DNA of 33,718 nt from Eisenbergiella porci (GTDB taxonomy: Bacteria; Bacillota; Clostridia; Lachnospirales; Lachnospiraceae), in assembly GCF_009696275.1 (NCBI RefSeq), contig NZ_VUMI01000061.1, forward strand, positions 1 through 33,718. Reading direction: 5' to 3'. A program made the position numbers and the translations under genes. The notes under the pieces were generated by a model. That model saw only the letters and a list, made by a program, of their open reading frames with translations, did not search any database and was not told where the DNA came from. Within the stretch, counting starts at the first letter, position 1, and each line of letters starts with the position of its first letter. Positions 1 to 33,718 of the stretch are shown piece after piece.

Positions 1-75
1 TTGGCAGGTAACTCCCTCTCTCTTCTTTATTTCTTCCACCAATTCATATGTTTTATATTTTTCTATGTCATTCAT
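1..75 (-). CDS. Partial small protein, N-terminus only
   Basis: The minus strand has an ATG at 75 followed by 25 open codons up to the window edge; the peptide begins MNDIEKYKTYELVEEIKKRE. A purine-rich stretch (GGAGAAAGAGAGAAG) lies just upstream as a ribosome binding site. The charged YELVEE.KKREGV style resembles small proteins found near the lysis cassette of Clostridia prophages, from memory, so it may be the first gene after the fibre genes in transcription order. It matters because it shows that the sequence at 1..112 is not the 5' part of the plus-strand fibre cassette. No function can be assigned. Confidence 0.6.
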   Translation of the reverse strand, partial: MNDIEKYKTYELVEEIKKREGVTCQ

Positions 76-112
76 ATCTTCTCTCTTTCTCCGACACTCA
101 GCAGTCGGCAGC

Positions 113-492
113 TAAATCAGAATTTAGACGGGGCAAAAATCATCCACGAAGGGAGCGGCGCAGATGTGAAATACTACGCCCAGCTGGGTGCCGATGCAGC
201 GTCAAAAAAATTATTGGGCAGTAAAAATCTTACCCTTTTCAAAAAAGCACTGATTATGGACGGCACAAATGTTCAGAGATACTGGCTGTTTCGGCTTGAA
301 GAAATGGATGTGTCAAGCTATAGCTCCCTAAAAGTAGAGTGCACAGCATCGTTCCAATTAACATGCAATGATATCGTTCTTTCTCAGAGCGGGACAATTG
401 ACTTAAAAGGTATTGATACTGTATCGCTGATGCTGAGGTTAAATGGCGCATCCAATCCGTATTATCCGATTACAGTAGAGCTTTTGGTCTAA
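113..492 (+). other. Headless alternative tail-fibre C-terminus cassette
   Basis: An open plus-strand frame encodes a fibre-type tail end (starts LNQNLDGAK, later GADAASKKLLGS, DVSSYSSLKVE, ends PITVELLV). It matches the pattern of the C-terminal part of the minus-strand fibre 501..1133 (QNLGALND, GADTVTKKLGS, DVSNYTFATF, ends DITITLD). It lacks its own promoter, ribosome binding site and convincing start: upstream sequence is the start region of the minus-strand gene at 75. It ends 8 bases from the end of the opposing fibre gene. The simplest reading is a silent cassette that becomes expressed when the segment inverts and fuses in frame to the fibre N-terminus. Confidence 0.7.
117..127 (+). 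repeat. Left inverted repeat of putative fibre switch
   Basis: TCAGAATTTAG here is repeated perfectly in inverted orientation at 899..909. With flanking matches the shared form is GNTAANTCAGAATTTAG. It sits at the first codons of the silent cassette and is itself near-palindromic (TAAAT CAGA ATTTA), as a recombinase site could be. In both copies the codons are read CAG AAT TTA, so exchange would keep the frame. Confidence 0.5.
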
Positions 493-500
493 AGCGGGCT

Positions 501-1133
501 TTAATCTAAAGTAATAGTAATATCTATGGTTGCGGGCAAGTTGTATTTTACTGCAAAATTAGCTGATATAGAAGTATACTCATTTACATTTAATTTCTGT
601 GTGCCGGTTTTAAATGAACTTATAGCTGTACCGTTACCTAATATATTGATATCAAGATTTGCGGAATTTGTATGTACTGCAAAAGTGGCAAAAGTATAAT
701 TGGATACATCAATTTCTGATATCTGCTGTATTGTTCCGCTTACAACATTGGGTTGACCAGCATATTTCCATCGGAAAGAGATCCCGCTACCCAATTTTTT
801 TGTTACTGTATCGGCACCTGCAACTGGTGTATAGGTAATATATACACCGTCCTCCCTGGCATCCATGCCTTTGATAGCCCCGCTGTCATTCAGCGCCCCT
901 AAATTCTGAATTAACCCATCAGTAGTTTGCTTAACTTCCGAAAATCCGTCAGCTACACGTTGCTCTAAATCGTTCATGTTCTGACTGGAAAAGGCGTCTC
1001 CTTCCTTGCTTACCGTCCCTTCTGACCTTTCCACATCGTATATAACTGCCTGTTTCGTGCTCACATTGGTCAGCTTCCGGCGGCCCGCATATTCGACCAT
1101 ACGGTCCGTCCATGTTTTCTTTTTAAATGCCAT
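501..1133 (-). CDS. Tail fibre / receptor-binding-type appendage protein
   Basis: 210 aa, beginning MAFKKKTWTDRMVEYAGRRK. The conserved N-terminus (about residues 1-75, including DVERSEGTVSKEGDAFSSQN and NMNDLEQRV) is of the kind seen at the base of fibres in Lachnospiraceae prophages and probably attaches it to the tail. The C-terminus (about 75-210) is beta-rich and ends DITITLD. The variable part begins just after QNL at residue ~78, exactly where the inverted repeat 899..909 lies. It is the last fibre gene in the tail operon, two bases after the stop of 1135..1740 in transcription order. Convergent with the silent plus-strand cassette. Receptor binding is inferred from position, not shown. 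Confidence 0.75.
   Translation of the reverse strand: MAFKKKTWTDRMVEYAGRRKLTNVSTKQAVIYDVERSEGTVSKEGDAFSSQNMNDLEQRVADGFSEVKQTTDGLIQNLGALNDSGAIKGMDAREDGVYITYTPVAGADTVTKKLGSGISFRWKYAGQPNVVSGTIQQISEIDVSNYTFATFAVHTNSANLDINILGNGTAISSFKTGTQKLNVNEYTSISANFAVKYNLPATIDITITLD
899..909 (-). repeat. Right inverted repeat of putative fibre switch
   Basis: On the minus strand this reads TCAGAATTTAG, identical to 117..127 on the plus strand. It lies inside the fibre gene at the junction between the constant N-terminus and the variable C-terminus. Inversion between the two copies would swap the two C-terminal ends. Confidence 0.5.
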
Positions 1134-1134
1134 A

Positions 1135-1740
1135 TTATATTAAACCTCCTTCTCCGGCGTAAAACTCCCCGGCGTATGCAATATTTTTCTTATTTCCGAC
1201 ATATATGTCAAAGCAGTCTTTTTGTATCTGCTCAATATCATTGTATTTTTGGAAGGAATTAAGAGGGCTTTCCGGCACTTCCGGTGTTGTATTGCGGTGT
1301 GCATAGTTTCTTAGCCTCTGCACTCCCTGACGTATTCTCTGATAATCAGAAGTGCGGGGCTTTTCCCCGACCTCCCAATTGTATTTCCCCTCTATGACCA
1401 GGGCGGCCAGCTCTCCTATTGTGAAATTGTTTTTTTCTATCCGGTTAAGATCCCGTGCATTAAGCACGCCTTTCTTATTCCGTTCCCGTACGTCCTCCGC
1501 TGTGCGGTCTGTGACAAACCACGGCAGGTCATATACAAGGGTAGTTTCATATTCACTTCGATTCCCGGCAGCGTCAATCATTTCCACCCACAAATGATAG
1601 GTGTTATCTTCCGCCGCCGGGGCATATCCATACCATTTCCCGTCCCGTGACTGGAAAGTGGTAGGATTACTATTTATGGCACCAGCGACATACACAATGT
1701 CGCTGGGTGCTGCAGCAGCTATGTATGCCACATTCACCAC
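1135..1740 (-). CDS. Tail appendage protein, Ig-like N-terminus
   Basis: 201 aa. The start appears to be GTG at 1740 (or the adjacent GTG at 1737) preceded by AAAGG. Residues ~30-75 look like the end of an Ig-like fold (YHLWVEMIDAAGNRSEY). Residues ~75-201 contain TDRTAEDVRERNKKGVLNAR and DLNRIEKNN, a stretch familiar from Lachnospiraceae prophage tail modules, then a linker-like C-terminus. Five bases separate it from the Ig-like protein upstream, so the two are probably co-translated. Likely part of the host-contact apparatus; exact role unknown. Confidence 0.65.
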   Translation of the reverse strand: MVNVAYIAAAAPSDIVYVAGAINSNPTTFQSRDGKWYGYAPAAEDNTYHLWVEMIDAAGNRSEYETTLVYDLPWFVTDRTAEDVRERNKKGVLNARDLNRIEKNNFTIGELAALVIEGKYNWEVGEKPRTSDYQRIRQGVQRLRNYAHRNTTPEVPESPLNSFQKYNDIEQIQKDCFDIYVGNKKNIAYAGEFYAGEGGLI

Positions 1741-4543: not shown

Positions 4544-4938
4544 GTCGGGGACCTCGCAGGTTGCTTAGCTGTCATTTTGCATGTAAAAGCTGAAAACTCA
4601 GCTTCTCCATCAAGTATTTTCTTATATTCGTCTGATACTGATGAAATATAACCGCGGAAAGAATATGTCCCTGTTCCTGCCGGCAGCACAAAATCATGAA
4701 ATTCTACGGGTTCCGTCATTTTATTCCAAAATTCGTTATAGTCTGAATCCCCGAACGCTGCACTGTCTCCCACTGTCAGCGTAAAGTTATAATACACGCC
4801 GATAAGTTCCCTTTTCAGGTCTCCGTCCTCGGTACGTTCTGCGAATTTGTCAAGGAAGTCCGCAGAACGTTTTAAAGATACAAGGGGAATGTCAAAGTGA
4901 ATATTATCCACAATAATTCCCTGTGTATATACACTCAT
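4540..4938 (-). CDS. Small tail protein between tape measure and tail tip
   Basis: 132 aa, starting MSVYTQGIIVDNIHFDIPLV. It contains TVGDSAAFGDSDYNEFWNKM, then TYSFRGYISSVSDEY and TCKMTAKQPARSPT. The position just after the tape measure and before the tail tip gene is where a distal tail or tube-like protein is expected. The Y.FRGYISSVSDEY stretch resembles domains that copy the tail tube fold, but this is a weak impression. It starts 3 bases after the tape measure stop. Confidence 0.6.
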   Translation of the reverse strand: MSVYTQGIIVDNIHFDIPLVSLKRSADFLDKFAERTEDGDLKRELIGVYYNFTLTVGDSAAFGDSDYNEFWNKMTEPVEFHDFVLPAGTGTYSFRGYISSVSDEYKKILDGEAEFSAFTCKMTAKQPARSPT

Positions 4939-4941
4939 GCT

Positions 4942-7900
4942 TTATGTCGCCCCCAATACTTCAATGTCAAGCCCCCGCCGGTTCATTTCAGAGAGTATAT
5001 CCGAAATAGAAAGTCTGGCGAAAGCTTCGCCGTCGTAGATAAGATTTATATTGACTGGAAGTTTTTCCTGTCCGTATCCACTTTCCGCAAGCCCCGCCTT
5101 TACCATATCCTTTATTAATCCGGCCGGGGCCTCGACATTAACCTGTCCCCGTGGCTGGTCTCCCAGCATGGCAAGGAACGGATTGCCACCCCTGATAACG
5201 GAACCGGATGCAAGATGGGGTACGCTTTCCAGTACCGCGCTGGCGGCTGCCGGATTAATGCTCCGCGTTGATGGGGATGCTTTCGACGTTTTCCCGGATG
5301 TCGTGCCTACTTTTTCATATCCGCTGCTAAAGAAGTCTTTTACTGCCTGTATAGCGTTTTTTACCCAATCAATAAATTCCTTTAATTTTTCAATTATTGG
5401 ACTTAGAGCTTCATCTACAATTTTGCTTTTTATCGCGCTGAAAGTTGACGATACTTTTTCCTTGAATTTATCAAACTTTTCCTTTAATTCATCTGTCTTT
5501 AGCTTAATTTCGTCGTATTTCTCAATTATTGATTTCTTAAGTTCTTCCAATAATTCGGTGGTTTTTTCCTTGATTTCCTCCCATTTTTCAGTAAAAGCAG
5601 TCTTAATATTTTCAATCAATTCTGACCATTTTTCCTGCGTGAACCAGGGAACGACATTTTCTTCCCACCAAGTGTACAGGGCAGTGTTTTGCCACCAATC
5701 AGCAATTTCATTCCATTTTGTTTCAAAAGCTAGGCCGATATTGGAGAATAATTCTACCCACTTTTCTTGCGTGAACCACGGCGCTACATATGTATCCCAC
5801 CAATCAGGCAAATCCCTAAGTGGTGCGTTTTCTTTCCACCATTCATCGAGAGACTTCCATCCACCTATAAATGATTCTTTTATTTTCTCAAGGGAGGCAG
5901 CAACATCTTCCTTGATTTTTCCAAAAGCGCCCGCAACATCCCAGTTCCATATTGTGTCGTTAAAATATTTCCCTAATTCATCACCAAGGACGAAATTGTT
6001 TGATTCTTCCCTAAGTTCCTTTATTTTTTCAATGGCTGGTTCCAGTTTGACGTTCCATCCATCCTCATTATAATTATCTGGATTAAGACCATATAGAGAA
6101 CTTGCTGCGTCTCTACTGGCATCCTCCAGTTTTTTCATTTTTACCTGATATAATTCAACTGAAATACGTCCTGCATCTAAATCGTCATTGAGTTTTTTTA
6201 TACTTTCTGATATCTCTGACGTAGCAGTCTCAAATTCTTTGAGATTGTCCCCGTGTTTTAGCGCATCAAAAAATCCAATTGTCGCGCCGCCACCGACCAA
6301 AGCTCCATTAAGGGAAAATGCGCCTTGCATAGCCGGAAATAAAGCATTAAGCTTTGATAAGAAATCAATAATTTTAGATCCGGCAATAACAGCATCAAGT
6401 CCAGCAAGTGCTAACTTAAAAGCTATAAATGCTTCTGCCAGATTGAATACCCAGTCAGGAATATCTTTTGTTTCTTTCCCGAATCCCTCAAAGAAATCAG
6501 AAATAGCTTTCTTTATGGACTCGTAATCCATTTCATTTATAATTCCGGCCAGAAAATCAAATGCACTTTGCAGTATTTTCCCCAGGGCACGTCCAATATC
6601 TTCCCAGTCGATATCATTTATCGTATCGATTAAAAATTTTCCAATCTTATGCCCAATCTCTCCCCACTTAATGCCATAAAGTAATGCTATAAGCCCATCG
6701 ACTGCTACATTTATACCATTAGCTATTGTCTGTGCCAACTGCTCCCAATTCAGGGTGCGGACAAAACCCATAATGCTTGTAGCTATACCACGGCAGCCAG
6801 TTATGATCGTATCGGAAATCAGTCCCCAATCCAGGCCGTCCATGAATCCGTTTATGGTCTCTGCTATCGCCTCCCCGAACTTCTGCCAATTAAAGTTTTT
6901 TACAAAGCCATATGCAAATTCAAAGGCTGTGTTTATACCCTGGGCTATAGTAATCCCAAGAAGGTGCCAGTCAAGGTTTTCAAGAATGCCGTTCAGAAAC
7001 GTTGCAAGGCTTTTTCCAAGCTTCCGCGCGGTCTCCCTTACTTCGCTCCAATCGATGTTCTCCAGCATGTCATTTATCTTTTCAGCAAGCATCTTACCCA
7101 GATCGTAAAAATCGGCATCCTGCCACATTTTCTTGATTTTGTCCCAAAAACTTTTAATTCCGCTGTCAATCGGGACTTCCTCAAATCCTCCGGTTGAACC
7201 TCCGCCTCCCCCGCCGCCAGTATTTTTATTCAGAACATCCAGATCGTCGAATTTAGCCAGGGCCCCGGCTGCCTTTTTAGCAGCTCCGGCCGTCCCGTTT
7301 AAAGCATCCTTATAGGCGTCCTGCACTTCCACCGCCTTTTTCCAGGTGGCATGGCCTGTCATATAGGCAAATAACTGTCCCAGCGCATTAACAGCCCGAT
7401 TTACCCAATTAATGAGCTCAATCAGGTACGGCACTACGGCCTGTATAATCGGTGCGAATGCTGCAGCAAATGAATTTTTCAAGGTTCCCAGGGCATTTTG
7501 CAAATCCCGTATGCTCTGCTTATACTCTTCCGAATACTTTTGCAGATTTTTTAATCCGGCTTTGGCGCCGGAAACCATAGCATTAAAGCCCTTTGTAATC
7601 CAGTTAAAAATAAGCAGTGATAGAGCTATTCCCTTAAATCGGGAAGCCAGGGTACTCATTAGACTGCCAGTTTTCTTTCCCTGCTTATTGATGGAGGAAA
7701 AAGTTTTCCCGGCCGCACTGCGTATCTTACTGAATGCGGTGCTGAACTTCTGCTCTACATTTTTGATAGCAGGAAGAATTCCTGATGCAGCTTTCTGCAT
7801 CCGAGGGAAAATCTCCTTCGTGCTACTCTGTTTCTTAAACATTTCATTCAGCTTTGCCTTACTCACTTCCAGCTTCCCGTTGAGTTCGTCAACCTTCTGT

Positions 7901-8304
7901 GAAGTTTTTTCAAACTCTGTTGACATACTGCCGGGCACAAATGCTTTCCCGGCTGATTCAAGGCCAGATAAGCCATCCCGCAGGTGATTCACCTGCTGGT
8001 CTGCCAGACTGATTTCATTCACCAGTTTCCTGTATCCCTTAGAGGATGTATCTCCAGACTTTTCCAAAAGGCGCAGCTTCCCGTATAACTTGTCTGCGTT
8101 GGCCTCTGCCTTTTGCAATTCCTTCTGCATTTCCTGGTATTCGTATGTCGGAACTTTCGCTTCCTTCATACTTGCCATCTTTGCTTGCAGCCGGGAAATC
8201 TCGGTCTCGGTCTTTTTTATCTCATTACAGAGGCGTAGGATCTGACTGTTGGCATCCCGTGTCTCAAATTGTGTGTTGATTTTAAACGTTCCGGCGTATG
8301 CCAT
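4942..8304 (-). CDS. Tape measure protein
   Basis: 1120 aa, by far the longest gene. It sets tail length and is ejected with the DNA. Residues ~15-175 are a long heptad-rich coiled coil (ILRLCNEIKKTETEISRLQ). A hydrophobic segment follows near 225-250 (GIALSLLIFNWITKGFNAMV), then AF.. helices, and a poly-Gly linker (GGGGGGGSTGG) near residue 365. The centre has many short amphipathic repeats with W-[SE]-x-[IL] turns. Two copies of a PWFTQEKW module occur near residues 845 and 890. The C-terminus (PINPAAASAVLES to the end) is the conserved non-helical end. It follows the Gp15-like chaperone gene, as expected. Confidence 0.95.
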   Translation of the reverse strand: MAYAGTFKINTQFETRDANSQILRLCNEIKKTETEISRLQAKMASMKEAKVPTYEYQEMQKELQKAEANADKLYGKLRLLEKSGDTSSKGYRKLVNEISLADQQVNHLRDGLSGLESAGKAFVPGSMSTEFEKTSQKVDELNGKLEVSKAKLNEMFKKQSSTKEIFPRMQKAASGILPAIKNVEQKFSTAFSKIRSAAGKTFSSINKQGKKTGSLMSTLASRFKGIALSLLIFNWITKGFNAMVSGAKAGLKNLQKYSEEYKQSIRDLQNALGTLKNSFAAAFAPIIQAVVPYLIELINWVNRAVNALGQLFAYMTGHATWKKAVEVQDAYKDALNGTAGAAKKAAGALAKFDDLDVLNKNTGGGGGGGSTGGFEEVPIDSGIKSFWDKIKKMWQDADFYDLGKMLAEKINDMLENIDWSEVRETARKLGKSLATFLNGILENLDWHLLGITIAQGINTAFEFAYGFVKNFNWQKFGEAIAETINGFMDGLDWGLISDTIITGCRGIATSIMGFVRTLNWEQLAQTIANGINVAVDGLIALLYGIKWGEIGHKIGKFLIDTINDIDWEDIGRALGKILQSAFDFLAGIINEMDYESIKKAISDFFEGFGKETKDIPDWVFNLAEAFIAFKLALAGLDAVIAGSKIIDFLSKLNALFPAMQGAFSLNGALVGGGATIGFFDALKHGDNLKEFETATSEISESIKKLNDDLDAGRISVELYQVKMKKLEDASRDAASSLYGLNPDNYNEDGWNVKLEPAIEKIKELREESNNFVLGDELGKYFNDTIWNWDVAGAFGKIKEDVAASLEKIKESFIGGWKSLDEWWKENAPLRDLPDWWDTYVAPWFTQEKWVELFSNIGLAFETKWNEIADWWQNTALYTWWEENVVPWFTQEKWSELIENIKTAFTEKWEEIKEKTTELLEELKKSIIEKYDEIKLKTDELKEKFDKFKEKVSSTFSAIKSKIVDEALSPIIEKLKEFIDWVKNAIQAVKDFFSSGYEKVGTTSGKTSKASPSTRSINPAAASAVLESVPHLASGSVIRGGNPFLAMLGDQPRGQVNVEAPAGLIKDMVKAGLAESGYGQEKLPVNINLIYDGEAFARLSISDILSEMNRRGLDIEVLGAT

Positions 8305-17457: not shown

Positions 17458-17694
17458 TCACTTCCTCTGTTTCTGCAAATTCTGAATAGCAGTCATGAAA
17501 CGACAGGTATCATCAACCATTTTCTTCCTATTCTCTGGCTTTTTCATTTCTTCGATGCTCTCATGAAATGCTTTTTCTACATCAGGATACTGTTTAAATA
17601 ACTCACGAACGGCTTTGCGGCAACAATCTGAGCATTTATCAGTACTCCCTATCTGCGGTAATTCTTTTCCACATACAATGCATTTTTTCATCAT
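17458..17694 (-). CDS. Small zinc-finger-like protein between terminase and portal
   Basis: 78 aa: MMKKCIVCGKELPQIGSTDK, CSDCCRKAVRELFKQYP, then a helical charged tail (IEEMKKPENRKKMVDDTC). Two Cys pairs (CIVC at 5-8 and CSDC at 21-24) suggest one zinc ribbon. Its ATG overlaps the terminase stop (ATGA), with GGAGGGGAAATAACGC as binding site. Function unknown; the position could suggest a packaging accessory role. Confidence 0.7.
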   Translation of the reverse strand: MMKKCIVCGKELPQIGSTDKCSDCCRKAVRELFKQYPDVEKAFHESIEEMKKPENRKKMVDDTCRFMTAIQNLQKQRK

Positions 17695-19316
17695 GCGTTA
17701 TTTCCCCTCCTGTTGTAGAAGCTCTCATATGAGTACCGCAGCGCGTCTATGCCGTGGTTGTCCCTGTCAGGATAACCGGAAATGATGTTCCCGTCCTTAT
17801 CCCTGTCATACTCATACTTCTTGATCTCATTTCCTGTTTTCGGTGTGCGGGCCATATCAATAACAATCGTTTTACCCTGCAGCCACTTCATACCGTATTC
17901 AACGGAGCCGGGTCCCTTAATGGCCGCCCTGGCCTGAATACCCATGTCCTTATAGTCAGCCACAGATTTTTTCTCCTGGTTATCGCAGGTAATCATATAA
18001 TCTTCATACCCGCGCTCAAGTATCCACTGCGCCGTGGCTACGTTCTTCTGCTTATTGACATAGTTTTCATCGATTAGGTATATGGTTTCCCTGGCAGCAT
18101 CATAGTAAGACCGGATAAACGCATACGGATCGGGATACCAGCCCCAGTCAACGCCTTGATAGATACAGTCAAAGGAAGCAATTTCTTCGTCGGTAATGGT
18201 ACGCTCTTCAATAAATTCAAAGACATTGCCACCGGTTCCGTTCGCTTCTCCCTCATATTCATTGGCATATGCTGTCGGATTCACCTCTTTCAGATGCTCG
18301 GCATCATCAAGGAATTTCTTTCCCAGCCACTCCGCCGGTACATCCTTATATGTACTATGCTGCACGACGGCATCCGCTTTTGTGAGCTTCACCTCTGCGA
18401 CATACTCATTCGCCCAATTGTTTTTGCTTCTGGGTGGGTTAAAGGACTTAAACTTATACGCAACGTCGCCGCCACGGATTGCCGACTGCTCAATATTACG
18501 GATTTCCTCTGGTCCCGCGAACTGGTCAAGTTCCTCAAACCATATGATTCCGATATAGCCAAACTCCGGCTTGATGGATTTTATCTTAAGCGGATCGTCG
18601 GCGCCACGGAAGAATATCTTCTGCCCGGTTGGCTTGTACACAATTTCCAGGGGAGAAACCTTATACTCAAACTGTTCCTCTAAATCCATTTTTTGTATTG
18701 CCCACTTAATCTGAGCATATACAGAATCCCTTATTGTGTTGCCAACCTTACGTAACACAAGCGCGTGCATATCATGATTGTTTTTAATGAGCTCATTGAT
18801 AATGCATGAGATAGCAGAGGATTTTGTGGAACCACGGCCTCCAGGAAGAACATACTCACTGTGCTTTCCCCGCCGGATGTCCCGCACCATCGGATGGAAC
18901 ACATCGGCAACAATATCCAGGTCCATGTGATAGCACTTGGCGTTCCTGGCCTCTTCCATTGCCTTTTCCTTGGCTTCCTGTTCCTCTTTAATCTTCAACG
19001 CCTTTTCCAGGTCATTTGCTGCCTTAAGGCGGTCAGTAAGAGCCGCGTCCATCCCGAATGCGTCTTTCTCTTCCCCCTTCATTACCCGCAGCCGGAACGC
19101 CTGTATATCTTCCAAGGATACAAGCCGGGTAGCTTCCACTTTCCCTTGCCGTTCTGCTATATAAGCGGCCACGTGAGTTTTCTTGAGGTTATCCGCTCCT
19201 ATCCTATACGCAGTCTTTTCAGAGTACCCGGCGCGCTTTGCTGCCTGTGTTGCGTTGCCTGTCTCAAGGTAGTAATCCGCAAAGGCTTTTTGCTTTATGG
19301 TCAGTTTCTGTTCCAT
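17691..19316 (-). CDS. terL: Fused small/large terminase subunit
   Basis: 541 aa, longer than the usual ~430 aa large subunit. Residues ~1-60 (LTIKQKAFADYYLETGNATQ, KRAGYSEKTAYRIGADNL) are the HTH of a small terminase (Terminase_2 type); ~60-125 is a charged linker helix. From ~130 the large subunit begins: Walker A GGRGSTKS (159-166), Walker B IGIIWFEEL (~255-263), then the RNase H-like nuclease with acidic residues in QGVDWGWYPDP (D390), ITCDNQEKK (D445) and DRDNHGIDALRYSYE near the end. No separate terS gene is seen upstream. It recognises and cuts phage DNA and drives packaging. Confidence 0.9.
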   Translation of the reverse strand: MEQKLTIKQKAFADYYLETGNATQAAKRAGYSEKTAYRIGADNLKKTHVAAYIAERQGKVEATRLVSLEDIQAFRLRVMKGEEKDAFGMDAALTDRLKAANDLEKALKIKEEQEAKEKAMEEARNAKCYHMDLDIVADVFHPMVRDIRRGKHSEYVLPGGRGSTKSSAISCIINELIKNNHDMHALVLRKVGNTIRDSVYAQIKWAIQKMDLEEQFEYKVSPLEIVYKPTGQKIFFRGADDPLKIKSIKPEFGYIGIIWFEELDQFAGPEEIRNIEQSAIRGGDVAYKFKSFNPPRSKNNWANEYVAEVKLTKADAVVQHSTYKDVPAEWLGKKFLDDAEHLKEVNPTAYANEYEGEANGTGGNVFEFIEERTITDEEIASFDCIYQGVDWGWYPDPYAFIRSYYDAARETIYLIDENYVNKQKNVATAQWILERGYEDYMITCDNQEKKSVADYKDMGIQARAAIKGPGSVEYGMKWLQGKTIVIDMARTPKTGNEIKKYEYDRDKDGNIISGYPDRDNHGIDALRYSYESFYNRRGNNA

Positions 19317-19722: not shown

Positions 19723-20754
19723 TCATGCCACCTCCATATACCTTGCCGCCTCTCTATGAATGCGCTTTTGGCTCCGGGCAATATACCGCTTGGTTGTCTC
19801 CGGGCTCCGGTGTCCCATAAGCTCCTGAAGCGTCTCAAGCGGGCATCCCTTATCTGCCATCCGGGTTGCAAAAGTCCGGCGGAATACATGGACGGTGAGA
19901 ACCTTATCCAGCCCCGCACGTACCCCGATAGCCTTTGTTATGTCCTCTATCGCGCTTTTCCCTAATCTACGGGGAATCCCGTGGTATGTCCGGTTTGTCA
20001 CAAATAGTGCTGGATTGCTGTCCTTCCTTCTCTCCAGGTACATGATAAGGTGCAGCTTTGCTCTGGCATCCAGTACCACCGTGCGGATCCTGTCCGACTT
20101 CTCCCCGCGGAATGTCACTGTTCCGGCCGTAAAGTTAACATCCGATATGTTCATGGCGGCTGCCTCACCTACACGCACACCCGTTGAAAACAAGAAGTCC
20201 GTCAGCGCTTCGTCCCTTATTGTCTTTTCCACGTCCCTTACGGCCACTTCCTCTTCCAGCGTCAGGTGGATGTTCTCTGTATCCAGCGGTTTCATTCCTT
20301 TTATGGTTTTTACTGGATGCATCGTTATGTATCCTTCATCATGCAAAAAAGTGAAGAAACTGGATAGATTACGCTTTGTATTTACCAATGTGTTTTGGCT
20401 TACATTAAGGGAACGTGCAGCCAGGAAGTATTTTATATCATCCTTTGTTATTTCTCGGTAATTTTTATTTAAAAAGTAGAATAACTGGCGAACCGATAGC
20501 CTGTATTGTGCCAGGGAACTTTCCTTGCATCCCTCAAGCTTTTTATTCGCACAGAAAATCCGAATCATATAATCATTATCATCTGTCCAGGTTGACAGCT
20601 CGGTGCTCTCTTCCTCGACTCTCAGGCCATGAAGCTTCGTCCGCAGCACATTATCTAAGGCCTGTAATTGTACTGTTTCCAAAATAGTTGACATTGCAGT
20701 AATAACGCTTTGTATTACCAGCTCTTTATTTGTTAGATTTCCAGAATTTACCAT
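19723..20754 (-). CDS. int: Tyrosine recombinase / integrase
   Basis: 343 aa when started at ATG 20754 (MVNSGNLTNKELVIQSVITA); an in-frame extension to 20907 would cross the promoter, hairpins and SOS box and is rejected. The N-terminal helical arm and SAM-like core-binding domain occupy ~50-145. The catalytic domain has R194 (STGVRVGEAAAM), H289-x-x-R292 (VHVFRRTFAT), H315 (ELMGHRSPETT) and nucleophile Y324 (TKRYIARS), so it should be active. It belongs to the XerC/D-like group common in Lachnospiraceae elements. It sits between early and late genes rather than at an end. Besides attP integration it might act on the fibre inversion sites. Confidence 0.9.
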   Translation of the reverse strand: MVNSGNLTNKELVIQSVITAMSTILETVQLQALDNVLRTKLHGLRVEEESTELSTWTDDNDYMIRIFCANKKLEGCKESSLAQYRLSVRQLFYFLNKNYREITKDDIKYFLAARSLNVSQNTLVNTKRNLSSFFTFLHDEGYITMHPVKTIKGMKPLDTENIHLTLEEEVAVRDVEKTIRDEALTDFLFSTGVRVGEAAAMNISDVNFTAGTVTFRGEKSDRIRTVVLDARAKLHLIMYLERRKDSNPALFVTNRTYHGIPRRLGKSAIEDITKAIGVRAGLDKVLTVHVFRRTFATRMADKGCPLETLQELMGHRSPETTKRYIARSQKRIHREAARYMEVA

Positions 20755-21321: not shown

Positions 21322-21358
21322 TATCTTCACCTTCTTCGTTAAATTTCAGTTTAACCGG

Positions 21359-21592
21359 CTAATCCGCTTTTTTAGGACACCATGCAGGGGATGTTTTAAT
21401 CGTAACTTCATGCGACCACGGTTTTCCAAAACACAGAAATCCTTCCATTTTCTGAATCCTATGATGCGAAAAGTAATCTGCGATATATTTCGTGTCTGGA
21501 TGTTCGCACCAAAAACTCGGTCTGCTATTTTCGGGCCGCCCCCGATCCTTGCAAAATTCGCATTCACTGCACTTTATATTTCTTTTCTGCAT
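21359..21592 (-). CDS. Cys-rich small phage protein
   Basis: 77 aa: MQKRNIKCSECEFCKDRGRP, FWCEHPDTKYIADYF, HRIQKMEGFLCFGKPWSHEV, then TSPAWCPKK. Six or more Cys, with the frame C-x2-C-x2-C ... WC-x-HP ... WCP-x-K, recur in the neighbour at 21623. It probably binds metal. Binding site GGAGGTGTCGG before the ATG. A linker repeat (21607..21616) separates it from the gene upstream. Confidence 0.7.
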   Translation of the reverse strand: MQKRNIKCSECEFCKDRGRPENSRPSFWCEHPDTKYIADYFSHHRIQKMEGFLCFGKPWSHEVTIKTSPAWCPKKAD

Positions 21593-21622
21593 TCCGACAC
21601 CTCCATTAAATCCTCATTATAC

Positions 21623-21811
21623 TTAGCTTTTTAGCGGGCACCAATCCGGTACTCGTTTCTTGCTATGATATCTCCCATGATACAAACCTTTGATTTTACA
21701 GACTTCGGTGTGTTTACAGACATTTCCCGCAGGCTTACCCTGTTCTTTCCACACTTCTCCATATTCGCATTTCATGCATGGATGCAACTCTGCGCGGCTG
21801 TTAAATTCCAT
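21623..21811 (-). CDS. Cys-rich small phage protein, paralogue-like
   Basis: 62 aa: MEFNSRAELHPCMKCEYGEV, KPAGNVCKHTEVCKIKG, then RVPDWCPLKS. It shares with 21359..21592 the layout of an N-terminal C-x2-C, a central C-x-H pair and a terminal WCP-x-K. Possibly a diverged duplicate. Binding site GGGAGGAAATAGG. Preceded by a linker repeat that overlaps the end of the gene upstream. Confidence 0.7.
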   Translation of the reverse strand: MEFNSRAELHPCMKCEYGEVWKEQGKPAGNVCKHTEVCKIKGLYHGRYHSKKRVPDWCPLKS

Positions 21812-21827
21812 CCTATTTCCTCCCGTA

Positions 21828-22061
21828 CTACTGGCCTAAATCTTCATTTTCTGTTTTTAATGAGTTAATATCTATTCCAGCTGCATGTGCCAATTCATTC
21901 GCTGCTTCAATTACGGAAGGCTTTCTGTAATTGAAACAAGGTTTTGTGCTTTGACGTCTGCACATGACCGAAAATCCAAATGAGCACTCCGCACCTTTGC
22001 GTTCGCCGCATGTTCGACACTGATTACGGAGTTTTGGCATATCTACTCTTGCTCTTCCCAT
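21828..22061 (-). CDS. Cys-rich small phage protein
   Basis: 77 aa: MGRARVDMPKLRNQCRTCGE, RKGAECSFGFSVMCRRQSTK, PCFNYRKPSVIEAANELAHA, ending TENEDLGQ. Five Cys in the first 50 residues suggest a metal-binding head followed by a helix. The last codons and stop contain the linker repeat 21837..21846. A start at the internal ATG (MPKLRN) is also possible. Function unknown. Confidence 0.65.
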   Translation of the reverse strand: MGRARVDMPKLRNQCRTCGERKGAECSFGFSVMCRRQSTKPCFNYRKPSVIEAANELAHAAGIDINSLKTENEDLGQ

Positions 22062-33584: not shown

Positions 33585-33718
33585 ATTTATCCCTCCTAGT
33601 ATAATAATGGTGTAGTCAAGAACGACTACTGGTTAACAGTTACAAAGTCCAATCTAATAAATCTATATAGATATAACGGAAGGAGGAGTTCCCCCTCCAT
33701 CAGAAGTTATAGGACAAC
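33585..33718. other. Right-edge intergenic region with palindromes
   Basis: No gene. The stretch holds GTAGTC aagaac GACTAC (33612..33629), the perfect 12-bp palindrome ATCTATATAGAT (33661..33672), and GGAGG...CCTCC near 33681..33697. These may be operators for the excisionase-like gene. TATACT appears just before its ribosome binding site, but no well-spaced -35 was found. The immunity repressor may lie beyond the edge. Confidence 0.4.

Follow-up and report, generated by a model that had tools for sequence, protein, structure and literature searches.

A probably invertible pair of C-terminal cassettes at a prophage tail-fibre locus of Eisenbergiella porci, and its candidate tyrosine recombinase

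The window analysed here, 33,718 nucleotides long, is the whole of contig C108 of Eisenbergiella porci (genome 6.1 Mb), so that its left edge at position 1 coincides with a break in the assembly. It holds a prophage whose genes mostly run on the minus strand, with the early genes at its right side and the Ig-like and fibre genes at its left end (Table 1). We call the gene at 501..1133 a fibre gene on account of its position and kinship; neither the window fibre nor the silent cassette has a Pfam or PHROGs family. As put forward in the original prediction, whose coordinates are correct, two fibre C-termini converge at this place, one of them the end of a full gene and the other an open frame on the plus strand. 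We found this frame to lack a start codon, with no ATG between the contig end and the site. The expressed and the silent end both lie between inverted sites of the TAAATCAGAATTTA type (113..913). Of the motifs that had been claimed for the two ends, the shared block 'GAD..KKL.GS' leaves a trace in the DNA, namely a 26-nt inverted pair (187-212/793-818) that is 85% complementary. Residues 1-91 of the window fibre, that is, the stem and the first part of the end, are 86% identical to those of G310 (L247). At the other end of the window, 33592..33718 is a repeat that has 11 further matches in the genome, six of which stand at the very start of other contigs; the left and right breaks of the window are thus due to different repeats.

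Table 1. Features of the window discussed in the text (aa, amino acids; sites and cassettes are putative)
Feature	Position	Strand	Details
Outer flank and site A	1..127	+	Identical to G000:C94:214-340; terminal 127-base assembly overlap
Small gene adjoining the switch	1..75	-	Start MNDIEKYKTYELVEEI.., cut by the contig end; read from the identical C94 stretch
Silent C-terminal cassette	112..492	+	GSGADVKYYAQLGADAASKKLLGS type; begins L-N-Q-N-L; 126 aa from site to stop
Site A, outer, inverted orientation	113..126	+	TAAATCAGAATTTA; read L-N-Q-N-L
Conserved block of silent cassette	187..212	+	GADAASKKL
Palindromic centre	490..503		TAAAGCGGGCTTTA; 14 bp; spans both convergent stop codons
Fibre gene, last gene of the prophage	501..1133	-	210 aa
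Expressed C-terminal cassette	501..913	-	ALNDSGAIKGMDAREDGVYITY type; begins L-I-Q-N-L; 137 residues
Conserved block of expressed cassette	793..818	-	GADTVTKKL
Site B, inside the fibre gene	900..913	-	TAATTCAGAATTTA; read L-I-Q-N-L
Constant N-terminal stem of the fibre gene	914..1133	-	About 75 residues
Tape measure	4942..8304		Window prophage
Terminase	17691..19316		Window prophage
Tyrosine recombinase, Xer-like, candidate invertase	19723..20754	-	Probable start ATG 20754

Site A reads TAAAT-CAGA-ATTTA and site B, on its minus strand, TAATT-CAGA-ATTTA. The 11-bp inverted repeat reported earlier, in which TCAGAATTTAG at 117..127 is the exact reverse complement of 899..909, was recovered, together with its extension to 15 of 17 matching positions when the flanks are included (111..127 against 899..915); a repeat search returns the pair 113-127/899-913 at 93% of 15 positions. 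This repeat is the core plus the right arm of a palindromic site. Site B was placed at the junction of the constant and the variable part of the fibre, where the repeat had been predicted to fall, and translation verified that the codons CAG AAT TTA stand in the same frame at both junctions (L-x-Q-N-L). At least one exact 11-bp inverted repeat arises in 13% of 1000 first-order Markov sequences modelled on 1..1133; thus, the repeat alone is weak evidence, and the case for a switch rests on comparison. The inverted TAAAT-N4-ATTTA pair in the 4.6 kb around the fibre gene was equalled in none of 100 such shuffled sequences, using a pair test (at most one arm mismatch per site, the same spacer, 150-4000 bp apart) that was designed after the site form had already been seen. 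Of 18 loci scanned, 10 have inverted same-spacer sites, and at each of the ten none of 100 shuffles gave a match; five of the ten are fibre loci chosen for their sites. The strict pair test failed at L324, where the arms are TAAAC/GTTTA, and also at C68 (L008) and at the cassette store of G311 (L248), because the left arm has drifted there.

Across the 6.1-Mb genome, TTAATTCAGAATTTA has five matches with at most one mismatch, all in fibre or cassette loci, and 29 with at most two mismatches, compared with nine for a reversed control pattern; the bare 15-mer matched at least 120 stretches of viral contigs, which look like chance. The 23 sites compared had been chosen by their core, so that the conservation of the core among them is partly by construction. 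Of the 26 sites translated, two G309 rows yield no protein, a stop codon being created by the base that precedes the left arm; C68_2 opens 35 residues only and the G310 cassette is cut after 18 residues. A third CAGAATTTA of the window is found at 20742..20750, at the probable start of the recombinase gene; it is perhaps an old or regulatory site, and probably a chance match.

The palindromic centre TAAAGCGGGCTTTA has the same TAAAN-N4-NTTTA form as the crossover sites. Using the window copy as the pattern and allowing at most one mismatch, we found five matches, the window included, in the 589 kb of compared DNA, against 0.33 per shuffled pass, and all four others lie at the centres of cassette pairs, in C110 (L011:5179), the G311 store (L248:661 and 1415) and L327:5400. 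At two mismatches there are 10 further matches against 4.7 expected; six of them are at cassette ends, two of these six being copies of one another. This centre is possibly a second recombination point or a two-way terminator.

The arrangement of stem, site, expressed end, convergent silent end and inverted site is repeated in C94 and C110, which are other contigs of the same genome, and in G311, G312 and G313. In C94 the fibre gene occupies 690..1361 on the minus strand, the silent end extends to 681 and the sites are at 326 and 1062, and in C110 the fibre gene (4411..5181 of L011) has a silent end behind it and perfect inverted sites at 4811 and 5495. C68 holds an orphan cassette between two site cores about 405 bp apart. 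The same site is found in G310 to G313 and in L326.

Three comparisons place the limits of sequence identity at the site. C94 and the window share 127 identical bases that end one base past site A, and their next 200 bases are 26.5% identical. G312 and G313 have a single difference in 3414 bases ending with the fibre site, with differences from the very next base and 25.5% ungapped identity in the next 200 bases. G311 and G312 are identical over 685 bases; this block opens one base ahead of the fibre site, takes in the two cassettes together with the outer site and runs on to where the G312 record ends, so that the left boundary is the one observed; in the 200 bases before this block identity is 23.5%, and the fibre stems are unrelated. 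In these comparisons identity of 99.97-100% gives way to background level at the site or one base off it, and, since an identical pair sits on unrelated fibre stems in G311 and G312, the cassette pair behaves as an exchangeable unit.

Cassette types that are silent in one locus are expressed in another. The silent type of the window is the expressed end of the L326 fibre, fused in frame on a full stem at a perfect site, and over 177 residues the stems of L326 and C94 are 42% identical. The original prediction had looked to homologues of this cassette attached to the same fibre N-terminus; we found the silent type on a full stem in L326, related to that of C94, and not on the window's own stem. 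Along its whole length, the silent cassette also matches the cassette that G313 expresses, at 28%. Conversely, G313, the G311 store and C68 hold the expressed type of the window in silent form, with homology beginning at the site or within a few bp of it. Both types are convergent in L327, with the different core AGCG, and no locus among those compared has the same two cassettes in both orientations. The window has two cassettes, and multi-cassette arrays occur in G309 and in the G311 store; the tail locus of G309 (L274:12234-17300, G309:C18) has a recombinase gene inside its array and the core AGCG. Elsewhere, a 48% fibre match was found in a Lachnospiraceae genome. The first 1140 bases of the window had DNA matches in five of 299 family genomes, four besides its own, covering 30-48 query bases each, and the silent cassette was found by protein search of 397 family genomes in its own genome only. 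Searches of phage collections with the silent cassette and two cassette segments gave no match, nor did searches of viral contigs with the C94 fibre and the G309 recombinase. The sites, their frame, the cassette homology, the identity boundaries and the placement of one cassette pair on two unrelated stems are thus findings of comparison at the sequence level, and the recurring layout, the boundaries at the sites and the cassette types expressed or silent elsewhere together lend support to the predicted invertible tail-fibre switch.

About 18.6 kb from the fibre gene lies a gene whose product matches PF00589 (E 1.6e-29) and in whose translation we recognised by eye the residues R-K-HxxR-H-Y, the catalytic motif of tyrosine recombinases. 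Against a role as the invertase, it is only 31% identical to the recombinase at the corresponding place in G310, although four left-end tail genes of the two phages are 85-86% identical, and we saw neither a CAGA site pair nor a cassette next to it. The protein is 30-37% identical to 13 others compared (133-187 bits), and in its own genome it is the sole close relative (150.8 bits, the next 58.3) of the recombinase of G309, a genome of the same genus in which the gene is embedded in the cassette array. Inverted TAAA(T/C)-N4-(A/G)TTTA repeats are found beside six of 11 recombinase loci, namely, L306, L308, G309, L322, L324 and L310, the cassettes of L310 having been recognised by eye and its last arm base being different (ATTTG). 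The recombinase adjoins a fibre or cassette locus in G309, L322 and L324, with related fibre genes in G309 and L324 and a gene matching the C110 fibre in L322. No inverted repeat of the site form was found at the recombinase loci L307, L309, L311, L312 and L323; L307 carries two copies of this form, both pointing the same way. Inverted repeats of 13-14 bp of another kind are present at L309 and L311, and repeats of a different form also accompany the sites at L308 and L324.

Four of the related recombinases are located at type I restriction loci, and the window protein is 36-37% identical to them (170-187 bits); an inverted pair of the site form is present in L306 and L308 and absent from L307 and L323. 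In L306 and L308 the recombinase adjoins the Pfam type I specificity domain (Methylase_S), and the sites are TAAATGATAATTTA. The L308 site reads N-D-N-L in the specificity protein, and the fibre sites read N-Q-N-L. L306 and L308 are the gut phage records MT835621 and MT838471, which appear to hold hsdS inversion loci. In L309 (Terrisporobacter phage TPELB_ph1), a recombinase of the same group, annotated as an integrase, lies at 17645-18640 directly behind a gene in tail-fibre position, and this phage also encodes a 527-aa protein annotated as an integrase whose start looks by eye like that of a serine recombinase.

In a tree of 30 recombinases, one branch (support 80/96; recovered in 81% of bootstrap trees) separates a set of 14, the window gene among them, from integrases encoded elsewhere in its genome and from those at the ends of G310, G312 and G313; 0 of 500 shuffles were as clustered. 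The set had been collected by similarity to the window or the G309 gene, so that the grouping is partly by construction, several of its members come from loci at which no inverted site pair was found, and the branch is not starred. The grouping of the window recombinase with relatives at cassette and hsdS loci is therefore suggestive, not firm.

A serine invertase was considered and rejected. In agreement with the original prediction that none is near the site, the genome has 36 PF00239 matches, of which none falls on the contig of the window or on C94, C110 or C68. Every full-domain match is in an open frame of at least 316 aa, which led us to set aside a small serine invertase of the kind that the Gin, Cin and Min systems use.

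It seems unlikely to us, though worth serious attention, that the segment is invertible through another recombinase acting in trans, encoded elsewhere in the genome or to the left of the window, and that 19723..20754 encodes the integrase of the prophage. PHROGs does label the window protein 'integrase', the genome has 36 PF00589 matches besides those to PF00239, and the examined stretches of C94, C110, C68 and G312 have sites and no recombinase of the candidate group, so that an enzyme acting in trans, or since lost, must be assumed for these. However, G310 and G313 both carry an end-located integrase of their own in addition to a mid-phage recombinase of the candidate group, and the one in G310 stands at the place corresponding to that of the window gene. 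Moreover, the cassette store of G311 lies about 2 kb from its copy of the recombinase, and the tree groups the window gene with genes beside cassette or hsdS loci, away from those integrases. The earlier suggestion that the 'integrase at 20754' acts on the sites thus stands as far as the gene is the best-supported candidate, given that two related phages have such a gene plus a separate end-located integrase; that it is the acting enzyme is what we infer from this.

We regard as improbable that the segment is a static relic, that is, an old inverted duplication in which the site is kept for the sake of its L-N-Q-N-L peptide and the cassettes have been swapped by homologous recombination. Such a relic would accord with the sites being coding on the cassette side and with an 11-bp repeat that is in itself not unusual. 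Against this, the left arm of the outer site, which lies outside the cassette, is still a perfect TAAAT at C108A, C94A, C110, G312 and G313 (C68 and the G311 store have a drifted one), identity drops to background at the site or next to it in the three comparisons above, and inverted same-spacer sites recur at more than half of the loci scanned, with the share of chosen loci already given. That two prophages were misjoined at a shared repeat, the convergent cassettes being no neighbours in the cell, is highly improbable, for although the window begins at a contig end in a shared 127-base stretch, the contig itself contains the two sites and the two cassettes, and in C110, G313 and the fibre locus of G311 this layout is found at a distance from contig ends.

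We consider it probable that 113..913 is an invertible two-cassette unit at the 3' end of the tail-fibre gene, with 19723..20754 as the likely source of its enzyme. The tyrosine recombinase would pair sites A and B, each with 5-bp arms (TAAAT/ATTTA) and an asymmetric core of four bases (CAGA); its protomers would bind both arms of each site, and cleavage and exchange at the core would flip the segment, the binding and the place of the cut being taken from what is established for tyrosine recombinases. An asymmetric core would set the direction, so that inverted sites would flip the segment between them and sites in two loci could exchange. Because both sites read CAG-AAT-TTA on the cassette side, the frame would be kept on a flip, which would preserve the first ~75 residues of the fibre and replace the end of ~137 residues by the silent one of ~126. 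Judging from its position at the tail end, such a change of the tip would probably alter which receptor is bound by the phage. The most likely enzyme is the recombinase that this prophage encodes at 19723..20754; it presumably flips the segment in this strain of Eisenbergiella porci, and it would be expected to exchange cassette pairs between fibre genes as well, given that the same site occurs in the other prophages of the cell and in orphan stores.

Among known systems, the Rci shufflon of R64 combines a tyrosine recombinase with C-terminal cassettes; it differs from the present locus in that its target is the pilin-tip gene of a plasmid, and we liken the two by description. The closest described system that we found is the Rin shufflon of bifidophages. 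According to its source, a receptor-binding gene in Bifidobacterium prophages has there a constant N-terminus of 168 aa and an exchangeable C-terminus of 95-100 aa, with rix crossover sites of 11 bp and a predicted tyrosine invertase; a second, simpler inverted locus without an adjoining recombinase is reported too, and the idea of a trans-acting enzyme is already present (PMC6109161). As far as that source describes it, Rin shares with our locus a phage receptor-binding or fibre gene with constant N-terminus and exchangeable C-terminus, short sites and a predicted tyrosine recombinase, which in the window is encoded by the phage and has an intact catalytic domain; the likeness is one of description and not one to the Rin protein or the rix sequence. 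Unlike Rin as described there, the window has one silent cassette, a candidate enzyme 18.6 kb from the fibre and the site TAAAT-N4-ATTTA, which moreover is present in several prophages and orphan stores, with an identical cassette pair on two unrelated stems. The same source mentions the invertible tail-fibre C-termini of Gin, Cin and Min (Mu, P1 and p15B; PMC6109161), which our locus resembles in this respect, but no small serine invertase is present at the window locus.

PsrA, a tyrosine recombinase, is reported to invert type I hsdS genes at a 15-bp repeat (PMC7096588; PMC4948785). The window system resembles it in that parts of a protein gene would be swapped by inversion through a tyrosine recombinase, and relatives of the window recombinase lie beside Methylase_S genes with TAAATGATAATTTA sites; however, the target of PsrA is a restriction specificity gene and here it is a fibre, and the resemblance is one of description, not of site letters. 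Tail-fibre inversions in prophages of Proteobacteria and hsdS inversions have been reported (PMC5903667). What characterises tail-fibre inversion in general, a silent inverted C-terminus bounded by inverted in-frame crossover sites, is found in the window. Of the inverton groups reported to be tied to tyrosine recombinases, group 139 is almost wholly from Clostridia and group 145 overlaps restriction S genes (PMC11892184). Among the titles and abstract openings returned by our literature search, no paper concerned this locus, and a search with the sequence letters returned papers on other subjects.

Compared with these systems, three features appear new, namely, a site form common to fibre and hsdS loci, one site spread over several prophages and orphan stores of a single cell, and one cassette pair on two unrelated fibre stems. 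We put forward tentatively, as a possibility that we would not yet rely on, a tail-tip network shared within a poly-lysogen, in which the recombinase of one prophage might flip and trade cassette pairs in trans across the co-resident prophages and orphan stores, the same recombinase group and the TAAA(N)-N4-(N)TTTA form might reshuffle type I restriction specificity genes, the site might force L-N-x-N-L on both unrelated proteins, and the TAAAGCGGGCTTTA centre might re-pair single cassettes. The host range of gut phages is usually read from one assembled fibre, and here at least two tips are carried by the prophage; a whole pair of tips can also come to lie on the fibre gene of another phage. 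The common site form makes it testable whether one type of recombinase serves both tail-tip and restriction-specificity switching.

Contig ends gave further hints about these loci. The ends of C68 and C127 overlap by exactly 127 bases, as do C94 and the window, which is as expected for a fork in a k=127 assembly graph; such a fork would be located at site A. An assembly may also break where co-resident prophages have flanks in common. We had taken contig ends near sites as a sign of assembly forks, given that six of the nine contigs with a CAGA site end within 400 bp of a site. In three of these six (G311, G312 and L326), as in L327, the record stops precisely at a start or stop codon, which probably reflects provirus trimming, so that only C94, C108 and G310 remain; we dropped this argument and lowered our confidence slightly. 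The right ends of C147 (L010:7556) and C107 (L009:5873) belong to a further tail locus of this genome with the variant site TTAAATTCTAATTTT, and, both ending near it, may be two sides of one cassette array left unresolved in the assembly. Small early genes in C110 (7729-8328) are 93-100% identical to window positions 21346-21868, the two prophages being otherwise different, a sign of recent exchange outside the fibre too.
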